The position numbers were made by a program, and so were the translations under genes. Shown piece by piece: positions 4,037-53,623 of a stretch of 64,000 nt of DNA; positions within the stretch are counted from its first letter, which is position 1, and each line of letters starts with the position of its first letter. Under the pieces are notes generated by a model, which worked only from the letters and a program-made list of their open reading frames with translations, had not been told where the DNA came from and searched no databases. Origin of the DNA: Terriglobia bacterium (lineage in GTDB: Bacteria; Acidobacteriota; Terriglobia; Terriglobales; Acidobacteriaceae); the NCBI GenBank assembly GCA_020072815.1, contig JAIQGE010000013.1:1-64000 (forward strand), written 5' to 3'.

Positions 4037-5605
4037 TTAAGCGAAGCGCACTGCGCTTGCGGTGATGATGGAATGCTTTTTGAATTTCACATCATCGTGG
4101 GCGGGATAGTCCGTGCGGTAGTGGGCCCCGCGGCTTTCCAGGCGGGCCAGCGCCGAGCGGGTGATGAGGGTCGCCGCAGTGTGGATGTTTCCGGCTTCGC
4201 AATGGCGGCGTGAGACCGGAGGCGGCACTCGCTGGGACGCAGCTTGCAACTGCTCCAAAGCTTCCGTCATGCCCTTGCGCGTTCGCACAATGCCTACTTT
4301 GTTCCACATCAACTGCTGGACTTCGCTGATCAAGGCTTCCGCGTCCGCAGTCGGGTTGCCGGCAGAAGCAGAGGCTGTCGTTCCGTTGGAAGCCGTGCTG
4401 GTTTCGCCGGTGTCCCTCCGCATCGCGGTTGCTGCCCGCGCGCCGAACACCAAGCCCTCCAAAAGGGAATTGCTGGCCAGACGATTCGCGCCGTGGACGC
4501 CGGTGCACGCGGTTTCTCCCGCGGCGTAGAGTCCGGGCAGGCTGCTGCGTCCGTAAAGGTCCGTGCGCACGCCGCCCATCAGATAGTGGGCTGCCGGACG
4601 GATGGGGATCAGGTCCACGGTGATGTCCACGTTGTACTGCAGGCAAGTCTGGTAAATGCGCGGGAAACGGGCCTTGATGTGGTCTTCTTTCAAATGGGTC
4701 AGGTCCAGGTAGACCACAGGTTCTTTCAGGGGGCTGACTTCCAGTTCGTGAGCGATGGCGCGGGCCACCACGTCCCGCGGGGCCAGTTCGCCCATTTCAT
4801 GATATTTCGGCAGAAAGCGGTGCAGCTCAGCGTTGCGCAGCACCGCGCCTTCACCGCGCAGGGCTTCAGACAGCAGGAAGCGCGGCGCCTTCTTGACGTA
4901 AAGCGCCGTGGGATGGAACTGCACGAACTCCATGTCACTGATTTCCGCTCCGGCCCGGTAGGCCATGGCCACGCCGTCGGCCGTGGCCACCGCCGGGTTG
5001 GTGGTGTTGCTGTAGACGTTGCCGGCCCCGCCGGTGGCCAGCAGAATTGCGGCGCAGCGCACCAAGTGTTGCGGCCCCTTGGTGGAAATCAGGCTGACCC
5101 CGCAAACCCGGCCGTCTTCCATGTGCAGGCCGGAGGAGAACTCATACTCGCAAAAAGAAATGTTTTTGAGAGTGGAGGCCTTGGCATGCAGGGCGCGGCC
5201 GATCTCACGGCCCGTGGAGTCGCCGTGCGCATGCAGGATGCGGTCACGGCTGTGGGCCGCTTCGCGGGTAAACGTCAGCTTGGTCCCTTTGCGGTCAAAC
5301 TCCGTGCCCCAGTCAATCAGTTCCTGGATCCGGTGCGGACCTTCTTCCACCAGGGTATGGGCCGCGTCGGTGTTCACAATTCCGTCGCCAGCGCTCACGG
5401 TGTCCTGAAAGTGCAGGCTGATTTCATCTTCGTCGCTCAGCGCCACGGCGATGCCGCCTTGCGCGTACTGGGTGGCAGACTCGGTCAACTCCTGCTTGGC
5501 CAGGACCAGTACTTTGCCCCCTTCCGCCAGCGTAATGGCCGCACGCAGGCCGGCCACGCCCGACCCGACCACGATGAAATCCACGTGCTGTGGAAGTTTA
5601 TTCAT
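4037..5605 (-). CDS. nadB: L-aspartate oxidase
   Basis: This 522-residue flavoprotein oxidises L-aspartate to iminoaspartate, the first step of de novo NAD synthesis in the cytoplasm. The N-terminal FAD-binding motif VVGSGVAGLRAA follows the start. TQYAQGGIAVAL, HPTALYV and the active-site region RPAAHYLMGGVRTD are all present, as is the helical C-terminal domain. The frame extends 33 codons upstream of ATG 5605, but that part has no homology and the FAD fold begins right after MNKLPQHVDFI, so 5605 was chosen. No nadA or nadC lies in the window. Confidence 0.93.
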   Translation of the reverse strand: MNKLPQHVDFIVVGSGVAGLRAAITLAEGGKVLVLAKQELTESATQYAQGGIAVALSDEDEISLHFQDTVSAGDGIVNTDAAHTLVEEGPHRIQELIDWGTEFDRKGTKLTFTREAAHSRDRILHAHGDSTGREIGRALHAKASTLKNISFCEYEFSSGLHMEDGRVCGVSLISTKGPQHLVRCAAILLATGGAGNVYSNTTNPAVATADGVAMAYRAGAEISDMEFVQFHPTALYVKKAPRFLLSEALRGEGAVLRNAELHRFLPKYHEMGELAPRDVVARAIAHELEVSPLKEPVVYLDLTHLKEDHIKARFPRIYQTCLQYNVDITVDLIPIRPAAHYLMGGVRTDLYGRSSLPGLYAAGETACTGVHGANRLASNSLLEGLVFGARAATAMRRDTGETSTASNGTTASASAGNPTADAEALISEVQQLMWNKVGIVRTRKGMTEALEQLQAASQRVPPPVSRRHCEAGNIHTAATLITRSALARLESRGAHYRTDYPAHDDVKFKKHSIITASAVRFA

Positions 5606-5843
5606 GAATCGGCAATGGTAACAAAGGGAGGGAACGATTGAGAAATTGCCCAGCCTAAAAGACAGTTCCTTGGGACCGCAGAACAACACAGATTTCAATT
5701 GCATTTGGTCCTGCCGTCTATTAATTTCGTGAAAATTGCCGGAGTTTTCTGCTCTGGCAAGAAAGCAACTTGAGTGAAGATGCCTGCCAGGTCCTACGAC
5801 TGCTCATGGCATCCTCAACCTTGAATCCCTTCCGGGAGGCGAC

Positions 5844-6779
5844 ATGACCGCACGACAACTGCATCTCGGGCTCTGTTTGATTTGCTTTTCCTTGTTAAGT
5901 TCCAGTTTGGTTTTCGCTCAGGCCCCAGCCTCCCTGGGCGAGTACGTGTACGCCTTACCGCCAGGATGGAATGCCACGCAGTATTCAGACGGAATTGTGC
6001 TCATGTCGCCTCCCTCGGTGACCAACGAGCGGTGTGTGGTCACCCTCTGGCCCATGCGACCGGCTGGCGCCAACCTGCTAAGCGATGCTTACAACCTCTT
6101 TAGCGACATATACAAAACTTATGAGCTGCGAAACCAAACCAACCGCGGCTCTCCCATGCCGTCATCCGTCGTGCGTGGCACTTCAGGGCAGGGGTGGGAC
6201 TATGTGGTCGTAAGGAAGGGCGTTGCTCCTCCGGGCTCGCCTGAGTCCCGCCTGGCTTTTGTTTTCGTCGCGAAGCTCAATAATCGCCTGGCGGTTATCT
6301 CAGGGGTTTCCAAAGATCCCCTGGTGAGCACTTGTTTTGGGGAACTCGCCTACAACGCGTGGCCCCGGTTCTTCTATAGCTTGAGGTTCAAGACCTGGAC
6401 CCCGGTTGATCAGGCTCCCGCGCTGCGCAAGAAACTGGCGGGAGTTTGGACCATTGCGACGGGGAGCGTCGCCGACCAATTCACCTTTGCCGCCAACGGC
6501 CGCTATGCTGGCGCGTCCGCCCGCCAGACTTACGGCAGGATCTCCAATTCAGAAGTGGTGACGACCACGCAAGGGTTCTTCGGCAACGGAGCGTACACGC
6601 TCAAAGAGGACACCATCACGCTTACGCCGGACGACCACAGCCGCCGGCCGGAAAGCGGGCTCATCCGCGTGGAGGAAGAAAGCAAAGACGACGGGAGAAG
6701 CTGGGTTGAAATTCTCTACCTGTTGAGGACGAGTTCGGTTGACGGCAAGGACTACGAGGTTCGCTATCAAAAGAAATAA
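5844..6779 (+). CDS. Secreted protein of unknown function, paralogue of the 31701 gene
   Basis: The 311-residue protein has a Sec signal peptide (hydrophobic residues about 8-24, then FAQA). Its N-terminal half starts LGEYVYALPPGWNATQ, and its C-terminal half begins LAGVWTIATGSVADQFTFAANGRYAG, resembling the first strands of lipocalin-like stability domains. The gene at 31701 has the same order: signal peptide, (V/L)PxGW segment, then an L(A/V)GxW...GRY domain. The two are divergent paralogues. A gGAGG-like sequence precedes the ATG. Periplasmic or outer-surface location is inferred; no function is assigned. Confidence 0.72.
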   Translation: MTARQLHLGLCLICFSLLSSSLVFAQAPASLGEYVYALPPGWNATQYSDGIVLMSPPSVTNERCVVTLWPMRPAGANLLSDAYNLFSDIYKTYELRNQTNRGSPMPSSVVRGTSGQGWDYVVVRKGVAPPGSPESRLAFVFVAKLNNRLAVISGVSKDPLVSTCFGELAYNAWPRFFYSLRFKTWTPVDQAPALRKKLAGVWTIATGSVADQFTFAANGRYAGASARQTYGRISNSEVVTTTQGFFGNGAYTLKEDTITLTPDDHSRRPESGLIRVEEESKDDGRSWVEILYLLRTSSVDGKDYEVRYQKK

Positions 6780-50144: not shown

Positions 50145-50240
50145 TCCATCCCAAGATCTAAAAGACTTACACAACACATCCCAATTTGGCGTGGGTTTGC
50201 CGATACTCGTGGACCGCAGGCGCCCCCCGCATGCGCTTTA
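50145..50240 (+). repeat. Dispersed palindromic repeat, copy B (partial)
   Basis: CCATCCCAAGATCTAAAAGA and CTTACACAACACATCCCA align with copies A and C. The hairpin arm CGCAGGCG (50215-50222) faces CGCATGCG with one mismatch. The second half of the unit is missing. It lies about 67 bp outside the left target duplication of the IS1595 element. Confidence 0.6.
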
Positions 50241-50314
50241 CGATTCCTGTCACCCGATGAACCGATCACCGGATCACCCGATTCTTCATGGCCCGCCTAC
50301 CCCGGCTATCTTCA

Positions 50315-50337
50315 GACGATTATATACTTGACGAAGG
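50315..50337 (+). repeat. Left terminal inverted repeat of the IS1595 element
   Basis: The 23-bp end GAY-GATTATWTACTTGACGAAGG (Y is C and W is A here) lies directly after the target duplication TATCTTCA at 50307-50314. Confidence 0.9.
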
Positions 50338-50355
50338 AAGCCTTGGGGGTGAACA

Positions 50356-51345
50356 ATGAACCCTAAGCCGCTCGTTAAGTCTAAACCCCGGCGGCTTCCA
50401 GAGAGGAAATACGTGACCCTCATTGTTAGCTTGCGTATGAATTATGGAGCTTTGATACTTGCGGACTCTCAGGAGACGGCAAAGGATAGGGATGAAAATG
50501 AATTTAAGTATGGCGTATTAAAAAGCGAGCCGGAGGTCATAAGGGGCTTCCAATACGTAATTGCTGGTGGCGGAGATGGAGATTACATTGATAGTCTGTG
50601 CGAAGAATTCAAGCGTGCTCTCGTTAAGTCGAAATGCCATACACTAAAAGATTTCAGGAATTTGCTTCAGCGTCGTATGAAAATCCTTAGCAAGCAAGCT
50701 CCCGTCTCAGAGATAGGGCTAATCGTCGCTGCCTCGAAAGATAACACTTGGGATGTGTGGAGAAGTACACAGCACAATACTCTAATTCCAACAATAAACA
50801 ATCAGCCCACTCTAGTCGGTTTTGCCACGCAGCTCTACCAACATATTGCGAACACACTATTTGCTCACGCAAATAGCACTGCGCAGGCTGTACTTGTTGG
50901 CCTGAGAATATTGGAGCTGGCTCGCCAAACTTCCACATGCGTGGACGCGCCATTTTCGGGTGTAATAGTAAATGCCGATTATGTAGCGAAGGTGAATAAT
51001 GGCACATTGTCAGAATTGACCGATAGTCTGACGACGTTTGGGGCCAATATGGACAAGTTGCTGCTGTCATCGGCTGACACTTCAATCCCGCCAGAAGAAT
51101 TTGTACAACAGCTTGATACGTTTAAGGAACACGCATTACACATGCGTAAGGAATATCTAGAGGCACTTGCAGAAGCAGAGGACATGGAAGGAATAGCGCT
51201 GATTCCTCTTTTCCCGGCTGGAACGACGGTAACTAAATTTGTTGATTCCTCTGGCAAGATTATGACAAGCGTTAAAGATGACCCAGAGTATAGAGAGACG
51301 TTGAAGACATTATTCGAAGAGGCAAGAAAGAAAAGAGGCCTTTAA
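50356..51345 (+). CDS. Proteasome/HslV-fold Ntn-hydrolase-like protein, IS passenger gene
   Basis: The 329-residue product has a ribosome site GGGGGTG before ATG 50356. Residues 19-41 read YVTLIVSLRMNYGALILADS, then QET, which matches the first two strands of proteasome beta/HslV subunits. Counting Thr21 as T1 puts Asp37 at the D17 position, and Lys residues follow near K33. FQYVIAGGGDGDYIDSLCEE resembles the family's following strand-helix. If active, it would need removal of 20 residues to free Thr21. The C-terminal third is helical and unassigned. Base composition is far lower in G+C than its neighbours. It lies inside the IS1595 termini, 12 bp from the convergent transposase stop. Function unknown. 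Confidence 0.7.
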   Translation: MNPKPLVKSKPRRLPERKYVTLIVSLRMNYGALILADSQETAKDRDENEFKYGVLKSEPEVIRGFQYVIAGGGDGDYIDSLCEEFKRALVKSKCHTLKDFRNLLQRRMKILSKQAPVSEIGLIVAASKDNTWDVWRSTQHNTLIPTINNQPTLVGFATQLYQHIANTLFAHANSTAQAVLVGLRILELARQTSTCVDAPFSGVIVNADYVAKVNNGTLSELTDSLTTFGANMDKLLLSSADTSIPPEEFVQQLDTFKEHALHMRKEYLEALAEAEDMEGIALIPLFPAGTTVTKFVDSSGKIMTSVKDDPEYRETLKTLFEEARKKRGL

Positions 51346-51357
51346 ATGTCACAGTTC

Positions 51358-52254
51358 CTATTCCGCTGTCAGGTTTTCAAAAGTGAGAGGATCAGCCGTA
51401 ATCATATGGCGAAGAGTATCAACCCAAAGCGTAGGCGATTTGCGGCGATTAAACCGGAACTCCATTTCCTCAAGGTAAGCGGACAGATGTTTCGCGCTGA
51501 TCCTGTGCCATGTTCCCATGATGCCGCGCTTGAGCAAGGAGAATGCGGACTCAACCGTGTTTGTGTAAACGTCCCCCTGCACGTAAACCTTTTTGGAATG
51601 ATTGATGGTCTTGTGCTTTGCCGCGTCCTGTCCGGCCCTCTTGAATGCGTTGGGGTATGCGCCAAAGTCATCGGTCATAATCACGTCAACATCAGTGCTC
51701 ACGTTCTCCTGAATATACTTCGCCAGGGTGCCGGACTTCACATCTTCCGCGTGGAAGAAACGAAGATCACCGCCGCGCTGACGGATGCCGATAACGATTT
51801 CTTTGTTGCCCTTAGCGCGTCCACCGTAACCGCCGCGCTGCTTTCCGCCGACATAGGTTTCGTCCATTTCAATCGTTCCGTCCAGCATCGGTTTGTGCGC
51901 TCCGGCCATTGCCTTACGGATGCGGTGACAGAGATACCATGCGGTCTTGTAACTGATTCCAAGAGTCCGCTTTATCTGATTTGCGCTCATGCCCTTACGC
52001 GCTTCTACCAAAAGCAGGACAGCAAGGAACCAAGTTTCCAGCGGAAGATGAGTGTCATTGAAGATCGTTTGCGTCAGAGCGGAAAACTGATAGTTGCATT
52101 CTCCGCATTCAAACTTCTTTTGCGTTGGCAGTTCGTAAACTTTCTTACTCTTACAGCGCAAGCACTCGACACCCAATGGCCAGCGGAGTTTTACCAGCAG
52201 TTCGCGGCAACGTTCGTCCGTGGAATACATGTGATTAATTTCAAGGAGTGTCAT
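51358..52254 (-). CDS. IS1595-family (ISXO2-like) transposase
   Basis: The 298-residue DDE transposase has an N-terminal zinc ribbon (CLRCKSKK, FECGECNYQF) and a helix-turn-helix region (SANQIKRTLGISYKTAWYLC). The ISXO2 catalytic domain follows with MDETYVGGKQRG, VIMTDDFGAYPNAFK and NTVESAFSLLKRGIMG supplying the acidic residues. HRISAKHLSAYLEEMEFRFN is the family C-terminal block. No frameshift or truncation is seen, so it is probably functional. It is transcribed towards the passenger gene. Confidence 0.95.
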   Translation of the reverse strand: MTLLEINHMYSTDERCRELLVKLRWPLGVECLRCKSKKVYELPTQKKFECGECNYQFSALTQTIFNDTHLPLETWFLAVLLLVEARKGMSANQIKRTLGISYKTAWYLCHRIRKAMAGAHKPMLDGTIEMDETYVGGKQRGGYGGRAKGNKEIVIGIRQRGGDLRFFHAEDVKSGTLAKYIQENVSTDVDVIMTDDFGAYPNAFKRAGQDAAKHKTINHSKKVYVQGDVYTNTVESAFSLLKRGIMGTWHRISAKHLSAYLEEMEFRFNRRKSPTLWVDTLRHMITADPLTFENLTAE

Positions 52255-52399
52255 GGCTAAAAGGCCCCCGAAACGCGCAAAGAGTCCATTGCAGAGAGTC
52301 CCGATGCGAAAACTGGCATCCGGACTGAGAAAAGAACTTTTGCAGAAATTGAGGGAGAGAAATGCTCCACTGGATTCTGATAAACCGAAGAATCTATAG
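52253..52399 (+). CDS. Possible small basic protein inside the IS1595 element
   Basis: A 48-codon frame starts MAKRPPKRAKSPLQRVPMRK, continues with GLRKELLQKLRERNAPL and ends at TAG 52399, before the right terminal repeat. AAGGAG lies 4 nt before its ATG, which overlaps the transposase ATG on the other strand. The peptide is very basic with an amphipathic helix. The ribosome site also encodes the transposase N-terminus, so it may be coincidental. Confidence 0.35.
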   Translation: MAKRPPKRAKSPLQRVPMRKLASGLRKELLQKLRERNAPLDSDKPKNL

Positions 52400-52440
52400 G
52401 CTTTAACTCTACCATGACTAAAGGATAGCAGAATGAGTTA

Positions 52441-52463
52441 CCTTCGTCAAGTAAATAATCATC
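52441..52463 (-). repeat. Right terminal inverted repeat of the IS1595 element
   Basis: Inverted counterpart of 50315-50337 (21 of 23 identical), followed by target duplication TATCTTCA at 52464-52471. Confidence 0.9.
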
Positions 52464-52477
52464 TATCTTCAACTAAG

Positions 52478-52735
52478 ATTCCAAAAGGCTTACGCGACTC
52501 ATCCCAGTTTGGCGCGGGTTCCAGAAGGGATGTGGACCGCAGGCGCCCTCGCCTGCGCTTCTGCCTTTTGACCATTCTGTAAATCCATATAAGCTATTGC
52601 AATAAAACGACTTAGAGTATCACAGGCGCCCCGAAAACGCAAGCAAAATCTGCCTGTCATGAGGAGAAAAAAGTACGAATACAAGATATTGGGTTGATGC
52701 ACCTTAGATCATCCCAAAATATTGTGGTGTTGGTT
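52478..52735 (+). repeat. Dispersed palindromic repeat, copy C
   Basis: Shares AAAAGGCTTACGCGACTCAT, TTTGGCG and GGACCGCAGGCG with copy B. It carries the perfect hairpin CGCAGGCG-CCCT-CGCCTGCG at 52538-52557. Like copy A, it ends with CACCTTAGATCA and ATTGTGG. It begins 6 bp after the right IS1595 target duplication. The 52400-52836 stretch holds no other recognisable gene. Confidence 0.65.
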
Positions 52736-52836
52736 ATTTCGGGCCCGGTCGACCGTGAGCGAGGCCGAACCCGCCACCAAGGCCGCGCGATTATCAGCGT
52801 AAAATAGTTCTTGTTCCTTGTATCGGCGGAGCGACC

Positions 52837-53433
52837 ATGACCAATCCAATTTCTTCAGCAGCCAAGCTCGTTGCGTTTTCTTGCTTCGCCCTGGGCGCCC
52901 TCACGCAGGCAACGTCGCAGCAATCTTCGCCACCAGCATCGCAATCCCCGTCGCCGGCCGACGCCAAAACAGCAACCCCCTCTGCCACAGAATCGCCACT
53001 GCTCCGCCTCAAGACTGCCCGCACCGTGTGGGTCACACGCGCGCACGGCAGCAACATCCCGTTTGACACCATTAAGTCCACGCTGGAAGGCTGGATACGG
53101 TTCGCCGTGGTGGACTCGCCGGACAAAGCCGACATTGTGGTCAGCGTGGAGTCCTCCGGCGACAGCGACGTGCAGATTTCCACTTCCGCTGCGCCGAACG
53201 AAAAGACCGGCCACATGGACCAGTCCTCCAAGACCAGCAAGGACCTCTCCGCCACGGACATCAAGATGACGGTGCTGGACGCCAAGAGCAAGCGCGTGCT
53301 ATGGACGTCGACGGAAAAGGTCAAGTTTGCGGTGAAGAAGACCTCCCGCGAAAACAACTTGGTGGAGGCCGCCGAGCGCTTGGCGACGCGCTTCCATGAC
53401 CGGCTGGAGCCTCCGCCCCCGCCTCCGCGCTAA
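52837..53433 (+). CDS. Secreted protein of unknown function
   Basis: The 198-residue protein has a signal peptide (about 8-26, LVAFSCFALGALTQATSQ) and a Ser/Pro/Ala linker. A compact domain follows from about 58 (RLKTARTVWVTRAHGSNIPF, GWIRFAVVDSPDKADIVVSV, TDIKMTVLDAKSKRVLWTST) and a poly-Pro end. The strand-helix order with ADIVVSV and a late VLWT strand resembles LpoB/CsgG-like periplasmic domains found in many acidobacterial secreted proteins, but no family is assigned. Confidence 0.75.
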   Translation: MTNPISSAAKLVAFSCFALGALTQATSQQSSPPASQSPSPADAKTATPSATESPLLRLKTARTVWVTRAHGSNIPFDTIKSTLEGWIRFAVVDSPDKADIVVSVESSGDSDVQISTSAAPNEKTGHMDQSSKTSKDLSATDIKMTVLDAKSKRVLWTSTEKVKFAVKKTSRENNLVEAAERLATRFHDRLEPPPPPPR

Positions 53434-53623
53434 GCCTGCTCGCTCTTGCTACGCGCCGCTGCTCATCGCGCCCACCTGCCGCTAAAATTACCCGCGGCCC
53501 GGCAGGCGGTCCGCTAGCGTGCTCATGCTGGCTCAGACCTCGCGTAAATTGCTCCCAGCCGCTCCCCAAACGCCCTCCGACACGCGCCATGCGCATTCGC
53601 CGCCCCTCCCCCGGCTTGTCTGG

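Follow-up and report, generated by a model that had tools for sequence, protein, structure and literature searches.

Regarding the closest described systems, insertion sequences (IS) of the IS1595 family with passenger genes are a known kind of mobile element, and HslV, one of the proteasome homologues, starts with Met-Thr. The 2021 survey by Fuchs et al. (PMC8665760) sorts proteasome homologues into 22 groups, including PPH, AAH, WPH and PMI; there, HslV is a compact subunit without a C-terminal extension, partnered with HslU, PPH (about 140 residues) and AAH are borne by phages, and many uncharacterised homologues are without a known function or a telling genomic context. IS with passengers, proteasome homologues and phage-borne ones are kinds already known; as for transposon-borne ones, neither "transpos" nor "acidobact" occurs in the main text of PMC8665760, and no paper on them was recognised in the literature searched, with most subscription journals outside its coverage. 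The present report concerns a stretch of 64,000 nucleotides from Terriglobia bacterium (assembly GCA_020072815.1, contig JAIQGE010000013.1, positions 1 to 64,000; hereafter the window), in which an intact IS1595 element carries what is rather likely an exchangeable cargo peptidase (predicted), retained as cargo rather than as transposition machinery. At the level of sequence, this reading draws on the ends of the element, its target duplications, the slot and its recurrence, the catalytic triad, the start codon preceding Thr1, the mismatch between the histories of passenger and transposase, and purifying selection; peptidase activity, assembly, a variable target and a role as retained cargo, in the persistence of the element or the survival of the host, may be proposed from it.

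The element, an IS1595 by its transposase, its ends and its 8-bp target duplication, spans 50315-52463 (2149 bp). Its 23-bp terminal inverted repeats (GACGATTATATACTTGACGAAGG against the complement of GATGATTATTTACTTGACGAAGG) are identical at 21 of 23 positions, and the duplication TATCTTCA stands on both flanks (Table 1); these limits, resolved to the base, are those of an earlier reading of the same letters (the original prediction), and the end core GATTATNTACTTGACGAAGG, allowing up to three mismatches, occurs twice in the whole window, both times at the ends of the element, and never in 100 shuffles. Its coding content consists of the transposase, the passenger, which converges with it in a slot flanked by the left end on one side and by the transposase gene's 3' end on the other, and a small basic open reading frame (ORF) divergent from the transposase, which the earlier list of two genes had missed. 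The transposase is intact, as claimed, with 298 amino acids matching Pfam DDE_Tnp_IS1595 (2.9e-33), a zinc ribbon (1.8e-11) and the IS1595 model of NCBIfam (4.2e-57, 193.5 bits for a cut-off of 75); its genome has 11 IS1595 transposases, two of them of the window subgroup (100% and 73% identical), both with a passenger. The G+C content of the passenger is clearly lower, again as predicted (0.456, against 0.509 for the transposase and 0.598 and 0.589 for the 5-kb flanks). As for the small ORF, its ATG and the start codon of the transposase overlap head to head, and it gave no Pfam family above the cut-off; of 38 elements, 23 were flagged for the motif LQRVPxRKL, L084 and L179 among these looking spurious. 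A promoter scan was uninformative (3 sites for 2.5 expected). The element thus shares with IS1595-family IS with passengers the DDE_Tnp_IS1595 transposase with its zinc ribbon, short end repeats and an 8-bp duplication, and differs from them by a proteasome-like hydrolase in an apparently exchangeable slot and by the third, small conserved ORF.

The insertion lies among dispersed repeats, found in both flanks (52472-53450 and 50153-50238), one of which (ACTARGATTCCAAAAGGCTTACGCG...) is at the insertion point; the right flank starts with a dispersed repeat, and parts of its 979 bp have 42 matches in the same genome. As for the comparison with an empty site that the original prediction had suggested, no orthologous site was recognised across the insertion in a right-flank search of nine genomes of the genus; elsewhere in the window's own genome, copies of the target repeat continue through the corresponding point without such an insertion. 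In a second genome of the genus, the related element L101 occupies the equivalent position in a further copy of the repeat, with the duplication TGCCGTCA by eye.

Regarding its identity, the passenger is supported as a predicted threonine hydrolase of the proteasome (PF00227) fold, as had been proposed, by the profile of its relatives and by its own, moderate model. The window protein alone gave matches at chance level in Pfam, NCBIfam, PADLOC, PHROG and PDB sequences, a scan of genome contigs with it confirmed nothing, and plasmids, phages and viral contigs held no relatives of it (viral contigs none with A3 either); in 298 genomes of the order it matched at least 13 other genomes at E ≤ 0.01, one match (L014/L027) looking spurious, and L027 was left out. 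When the window protein is aligned with 10 relatives (11 rows in all), T21, D37 and K51 (long-form numbering) are invariant and correspond to a Thr1/Asp17/Lys33-type triad, present as T/D/K in 63 of 76 ORF pieces. The profile of these rows matched 20S proteasome beta subunits in the PDB (5.6e-10), with the conserved Thr aligned on the mature Thr1, and PF00227 was matched at E ≤ 1 by 8 of the 11 proteins (best 4.4e-8), the window protein being one of the other three. The predicted model of the window protein (predicted local distance difference test, pLDDT, 73.0) matched proteasome subunits (1.8e-9) and also Anbu, and that of the relative L142 (pLDDT 84.8) matched Anbu best (5nyg, 1e-11, template modelling score 0.75 on the target). 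There is also a second, more divergent proteasome-like group, A6, whose profile matched 20S beta subunits at 3.4e-17; A2 and A6 align with an hhalign probability of 97.2.

Anbu resembles the L142 model in its long C-terminal helices, of which the model has two; the identity over the aligned part is 11-14%, and the present genes are mobile. With HslV and 20S beta subunits, the passengers have in common the triad and the profile match, and they differ by a longer C-terminus: their length from the Thr start is 240-353 residues in 47 relatives, and this size, the two helices of the L142 model and an element holding no HslU-sized or second-subunit ORF set them apart from HslV. The housekeeping HslV was also rejected as an explanation, the genome having a separate weak match at C8 (4.1e-5). 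As for PPH and AAH, location on mobile DNA is common to both cases, and the main text of PMC8665760 describes phages.

Seen from the passenger side, recurrence was counted by profile searches that scored few candidates per genome (e.g. 5) and give lower bounds: the first passenger profile matches at least 64 of 397 genomes of the order and, in the phylum, at least 16 of 396, eight of these 16 being weak (E > 1e-7) and possibly other proteasome homologues. Two short patterns, run on a collection of 84,980 species, retrieved 12 loci, all in acidobacterial records. At 43 of 73 loci, the window being one of the 73, the stretch fetched contains an IS1595 or IS1-like transposase, which is tail-to-tail with the passenger at 35 of the 43. 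At nine of the 22 tail-to-tail IS1595 loci, matching ends enclose the passenger and the 8-bp duplication is exact; L101 adds a tenth by eye, and L085 has a duplication of 7 bp; among the 13 tail-to-tail IS1-like loci, eight have ends (GGTAGTGGGTCAGTTT or near variants) and an exact 8-bp duplication by eye. The two genes, therefore, do travel together between ends, as it had been proposed to check, and more widely than foreseen, relatives of the passenger lying inside both IS1595 and IS1-like ends. Seven elements (L071, L082, L100, L162, L166, L168, L169) are inserted in a palindromic target like GGCACGACTTCAGTCGTGCC, and their duplications are hard to delimit because of it. In L105, L108, L111 and L118, relatives of the passenger are co-directional with more distant IS1595 or IS1-like transposases, L108 having a perfect 22-bp inverted repeat.

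Seen from the transposase side, the window enzyme found 75 places in at least 55 of the 397 genomes of the order at E ≤ 1e-85, and a proteasome-like gene lies tail-to-tail in 30 of the 36 best of them by E-value. Sixteen of these 36 have a first-profile passenger; the other 20, all fetched, comprise 13 with an A6-type gene, one with a match to profile A2 (3.2e-17) and six with neither, and the notion that close IS1595 relatives lacking a first-profile passenger are plain IS was ruled out, 14 of the 20 carrying a more divergent proteasome-like gene. A6-type elements have exact duplications of 10 bp (L163, L164) and 8 bp (L174). In L172, one of the six, the position of the slot is taken by a ClpP-like SDH protease gene (PF01972, 1.9e-14; 4855-6015, minus strand), the ends of this element not being found when looked for; another, L176, is 0.9 kb from the contig start, with a short slot side.

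As for the IS1-like carriers, the best NCBIfam match of their transposase is IS1, with 54-55 bits for a cut-off of 100. A search with a 110-residue query was counted to rank 33. Of its 16 best places, 14 have a proteasome-like gene adjacent to the transposase, and 13 of these genes are tail-to-tail with it; the 16 comprise 13 with an adjacent first-profile passenger, one A6-type (L230), one with an SDH-protease (L231) and one with neither, and in G394:C87 the first-profile passenger is head-to-head with the transposase, outside the slot. The SDH-protease ORF of L231 is broken (4470-5439, minus strand) and lies between ends with the duplication AATCATTG; a ClpP-like protease thus replaces the proteasome-like gene in two elements, L172 and L231, the ends being seen in L231 alone. 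A further ClpP-like SDH-type protease gene (PF01972) was noticed near a proteasome-like gene at L122:1-519 (minus strand). In this way, a large divergent group of proteasome homologues gains a sharp context, namely the cargo slot of small transposons.

Several comparisons indicate that passengers have been exchanged between elements of the two transposase families, the backbone being left in place. In 16 IS1595 elements, the transposases are 55-90% identical (median 67) and the passengers, over the locally aligned part, have a median of 28% (18-53); the window element and L101 have transposases 86% identical and passengers 26% identical, the latter over 57 residues only, and for L071 and L100 the values are 90% and 30%. 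The passengers of L071 (IS1595) and L024 (IS1-like) are 57% identical despite the different transposase families. At the DNA level, homology between the window element and L101 covers the left end and about 17 bases of the leader, is then lost, and resumes about 30 bases past the end of the passenger gene, at a point within the 3' end of the gene for the transposase, to continue to the right end. In the passenger tree (47 rows), the starred branches force at least five changes of the IS1 label and at least nine of the IS1595 label; the IS1595 label is clustered no better than when shuffled (295 of 500 shuffles as low), which fits exchange, and the IS1 label is clustered (0 of 500 as low).

The same data could reflect no exchange at all, but a passenger whose evolution, in each lineage of elements, far outpaces that of the transposase, and the many very long passenger branches, together with close transposases that keep related passengers (L104/L112, L091/L104), are in its favour; this is nonetheless improbable given the pairs with 86-90% transposases and 26-30% passengers, the 57% passengers shared across families, the homology that ends in the leader and restarts at the transposase end, and a ratio of non-synonymous to synonymous substitution rates (dN/dS) of about 0.1. 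This ratio was 0.094, 0.143, 0.089 and 0.157 in the four usable of nine pairs, the other five having no dS (saturated), three of the values resting on dS > 1 and the fourth on 85 codons, and it points to a passenger under purifying selection. A functionless hitch-hiker or a decaying gene, which fragment-like copies (L023, L073, L115, L120) might evoke, is very improbable with dN/dS of 0.09-0.16 and a conserved triad; the locus would instead be a case of a transposon-borne protease gene (predicted) kept by purifying selection.

A different role would be service to the element itself, the hydrolase processing or degrading the transposase or the small basic protein and in this way tuning transposition. 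That hydrolase and transposase genes are tail-to-tail in 30 of the 36 best places agrees with it, and the small conserved basic ORF would be a possible partner; however, passengers are swapped in elements that keep their transposase, members of one passenger group are found with transposases of another family, six of the 36 places (L176 among them, near its contig start) have no proteasome-like gene, and two elements, L016 and L119, consist of a passenger between ends and lack a transposase, their duplications agreeing at 7 of 8 bases. Because passengers are replaced and are common to two transposase families, a fixed role in transposition is disfavoured, and such service to the element appears unlikely, if less so than the preceding two explanations.

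Regarding the start of translation, 66 of 76 pieces were usable (10 were excluded as fragments, as a misaligned piece or with the motif not located), and in all 66 the codon before the catalytic Thr or Ser (T1/S1) is a start codon: ATG in 42, GTG in 23 and TTG in one. Where Val precedes T1 it is always encoded by GTG (23 of 23), a codon that makes up 25% of Val codons in the same genes; with ordinary, independent Val codons this would have a probability of 1.7e-14, a value that is a guide only because the rows are related. A second set had a start codon before Thr in 11 of 11 cases, the Thr being picked by eye. The Shine-Dalgarno energy before the Thr start is -6.25, against -2.50 for random positions and -2.52 for internal in-frame ATG or GTG codons, and the 18 bases upstream of the start reach -4 kcal/mol or lower against the anti-Shine-Dalgarno in 77% of cases, against 23-25% of controls. 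From the start codons and the Shine-Dalgarno data together, it follows that translation can begin in such a way that removal of Met would expose an N-terminal Thr. The convergent 329-codon gene of the original prediction does exist as an ORF (329 amino acids from ATG 50356); because a start codon precedes the catalytic Thr in 66 of 66 pieces, the likely product, and probably the active form, is rather the one of 310 residues from GTG 50413. For annotation, the codon before the catalytic Thr should be considered as the start of such proteins.

As an alternative, the long, leader-bearing form might be the real product, with Thr1 exposed once a propeptide has cleaved itself off, the route taken by 20S beta subunits. 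Many relatives do have an in-frame upstream leader, often rich in Pro and Lys and often with its own start; however, every usable piece has a start codon, and never another Val codon, immediately ahead of Thr, with a Shine-Dalgarno signal over the set, and six relatives (L020, L077, L080, L097, L103, L129) cannot use a far start because an in-frame stop lies five codons or fewer upstream. Since removal of the initiator Met would by itself make Thr the N-terminus, a self-cleaved propeptide is unneeded, and such processing is doubtful. An RNA hairpin in the leader (AAGCCGC/GCGGCTT, by eye) was tried and rejected, with a mean z of -0.49 and 5 of 65 below -2 on mononucleotide shuffles.

As for the mechanism, the cargo hydrolase would acquire its catalytic Thr as N-terminus by Met removal, would probably assemble into a ring or a helix, as Anbu and HslV do, and would cut a specific protein, the target differing between passengers; two transposase families would carry such genes in a fixed slot and swap them on retained backbones. 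A more far-reaching version, which is conceivable and speculative, is a shared mobile "peptidase slot" for interchangeable peptidases of the self-compartmentalising type, mostly proteasome-like and sometimes ClpP-like, in which the two in-frame starts that the proteasome-like genes often have could yield blocked, leader-bearing alpha-like and free-Thr beta-like subunits, namely a one-gene proteasome on a jumping gene, directed against varying targets. Equally tentative is an effector of defence or of exclusion between elements, a protease triggered by a phage or a rival element and with a fast-changing specificity: the strong divergence around a constant active site, the repeated replacement and the substitution by a ClpP-like protease gene would suit it, while the best PADLOC match of the window protein is unconvincing (0.018) and no sensor domain or partner gene was seen, neighbouring defence genes not having been searched for. 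With respect to the cargo reading preferred here, the context supplies candidate partners (the transposase and the small basic protein) and natural swapped variants on similar backbones.

However, it should be noted that several observations weigh against the cargo reading. Between the window passenger and its relatives, identity is only 14-23%, and the fold model of this passenger is itself moderate; in addition, the element has, by its ORF list, no AAA+ unfoldase-sized ORF either. The outcome that the original prediction had named as contrary to it, homologues always outside IS1595 ends, did not occur, though at 30 of the 73 loci the stretch fetched shows no transposase of either family (in seven of these the gene runs into the contig end, and two are the passenger-only elements). 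Linkage falls with distance: in the IS1595 list a proteasome-like gene is present in 5 of 10 places examined at ranks 37-47 and in 0 of 12 at ranks 48-75 (49-56% identity; L200 is cut by a contig end), the 39 places beyond the best 36 consisting of 20 fetched (three with such a gene), two known already and 17 outside the count. In the IS1-like list, ranks 17-33 have a first-profile passenger in 2 of 17 (G394:C391, head-to-head, and G035:C125), the 15 other fetched places having none by profile, two of them cut; contig ends truncate the slot side of L195, L200, L242 and L244, all of them places where no such gene was seen. The cut-offs of 36 and 16 were set after seeing the lists. The IS1-like pair L104 and L112 has transposases 85% identical and passengers that are still 46% identical. 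Finally, a longer form with the leader is probably made too, because the frame is open for at least 20 codons upstream in 57 of 65 pieces (the other two frames in 20 and 36).

Table 1. Features of the IS1595 element and its borders in the window.
Feature	Position	Strand	Basis
Left copy of target duplication, TATCTTCA	50307..50314	.	Sequence; comparison with other copies of the target repeat
Left terminal inverted repeat	50315..50337	+	Comparison of ends; scan for the core motif
Shine-Dalgarno-like GGGGGTG before the upstream ATG	50345..50351	+	By eye
In-frame Pro/Lys-rich leader (MNPKPLVKSKPRRLPERKY)	50356..50412	+	ORF translation; open-frame counts in relatives
Shine-Dalgarno-like GAGAGG before the internal start	50401..50406	+	By eye; duplex energies over the set
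Passenger, proteasome-like Thr hydrolase (predicted), probable start GTG 50413	50413..51345	+	Alignment, profile, model, start-codon counts
Predicted catalytic Thr codon of the passenger	50416-50418	+	Alignment
IS1595-family transposase, 298 amino acids	51358..52254	-	Pfam, NCBIfam
Small basic ORF, 48 amino acids, core LQRVPxRKL, divergent from the transposase	52253..52399	+	Sequence; motif scan of elements
Right terminal inverted repeat	52441..52463	-	Comparison of ends; scan for the core motif
Right copy of target duplication, TATCTTCA	52464..52471	.	Sequence; comparison with other copies of the target repeat

Regarding other contents of these elements, the slot of IS1595 relatives L178, L179, L180 and L191-L194 holds ORFs that by eye resemble membrane proteins, and no peptidase. 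The IS1-like L074, L104, L231, L239 and L247 have, beyond the transposase, one more small ORF, whose motifs are GRKGGQIGGKRR- or GGAKGGKARA-like. L240:4492-5385 (plus strand), next to an IS1-like transposase of lower rank, is a proteasome-like ORF with a hydrophobic N-terminus and a PF00227 match of 0.0053, below the cut-off.

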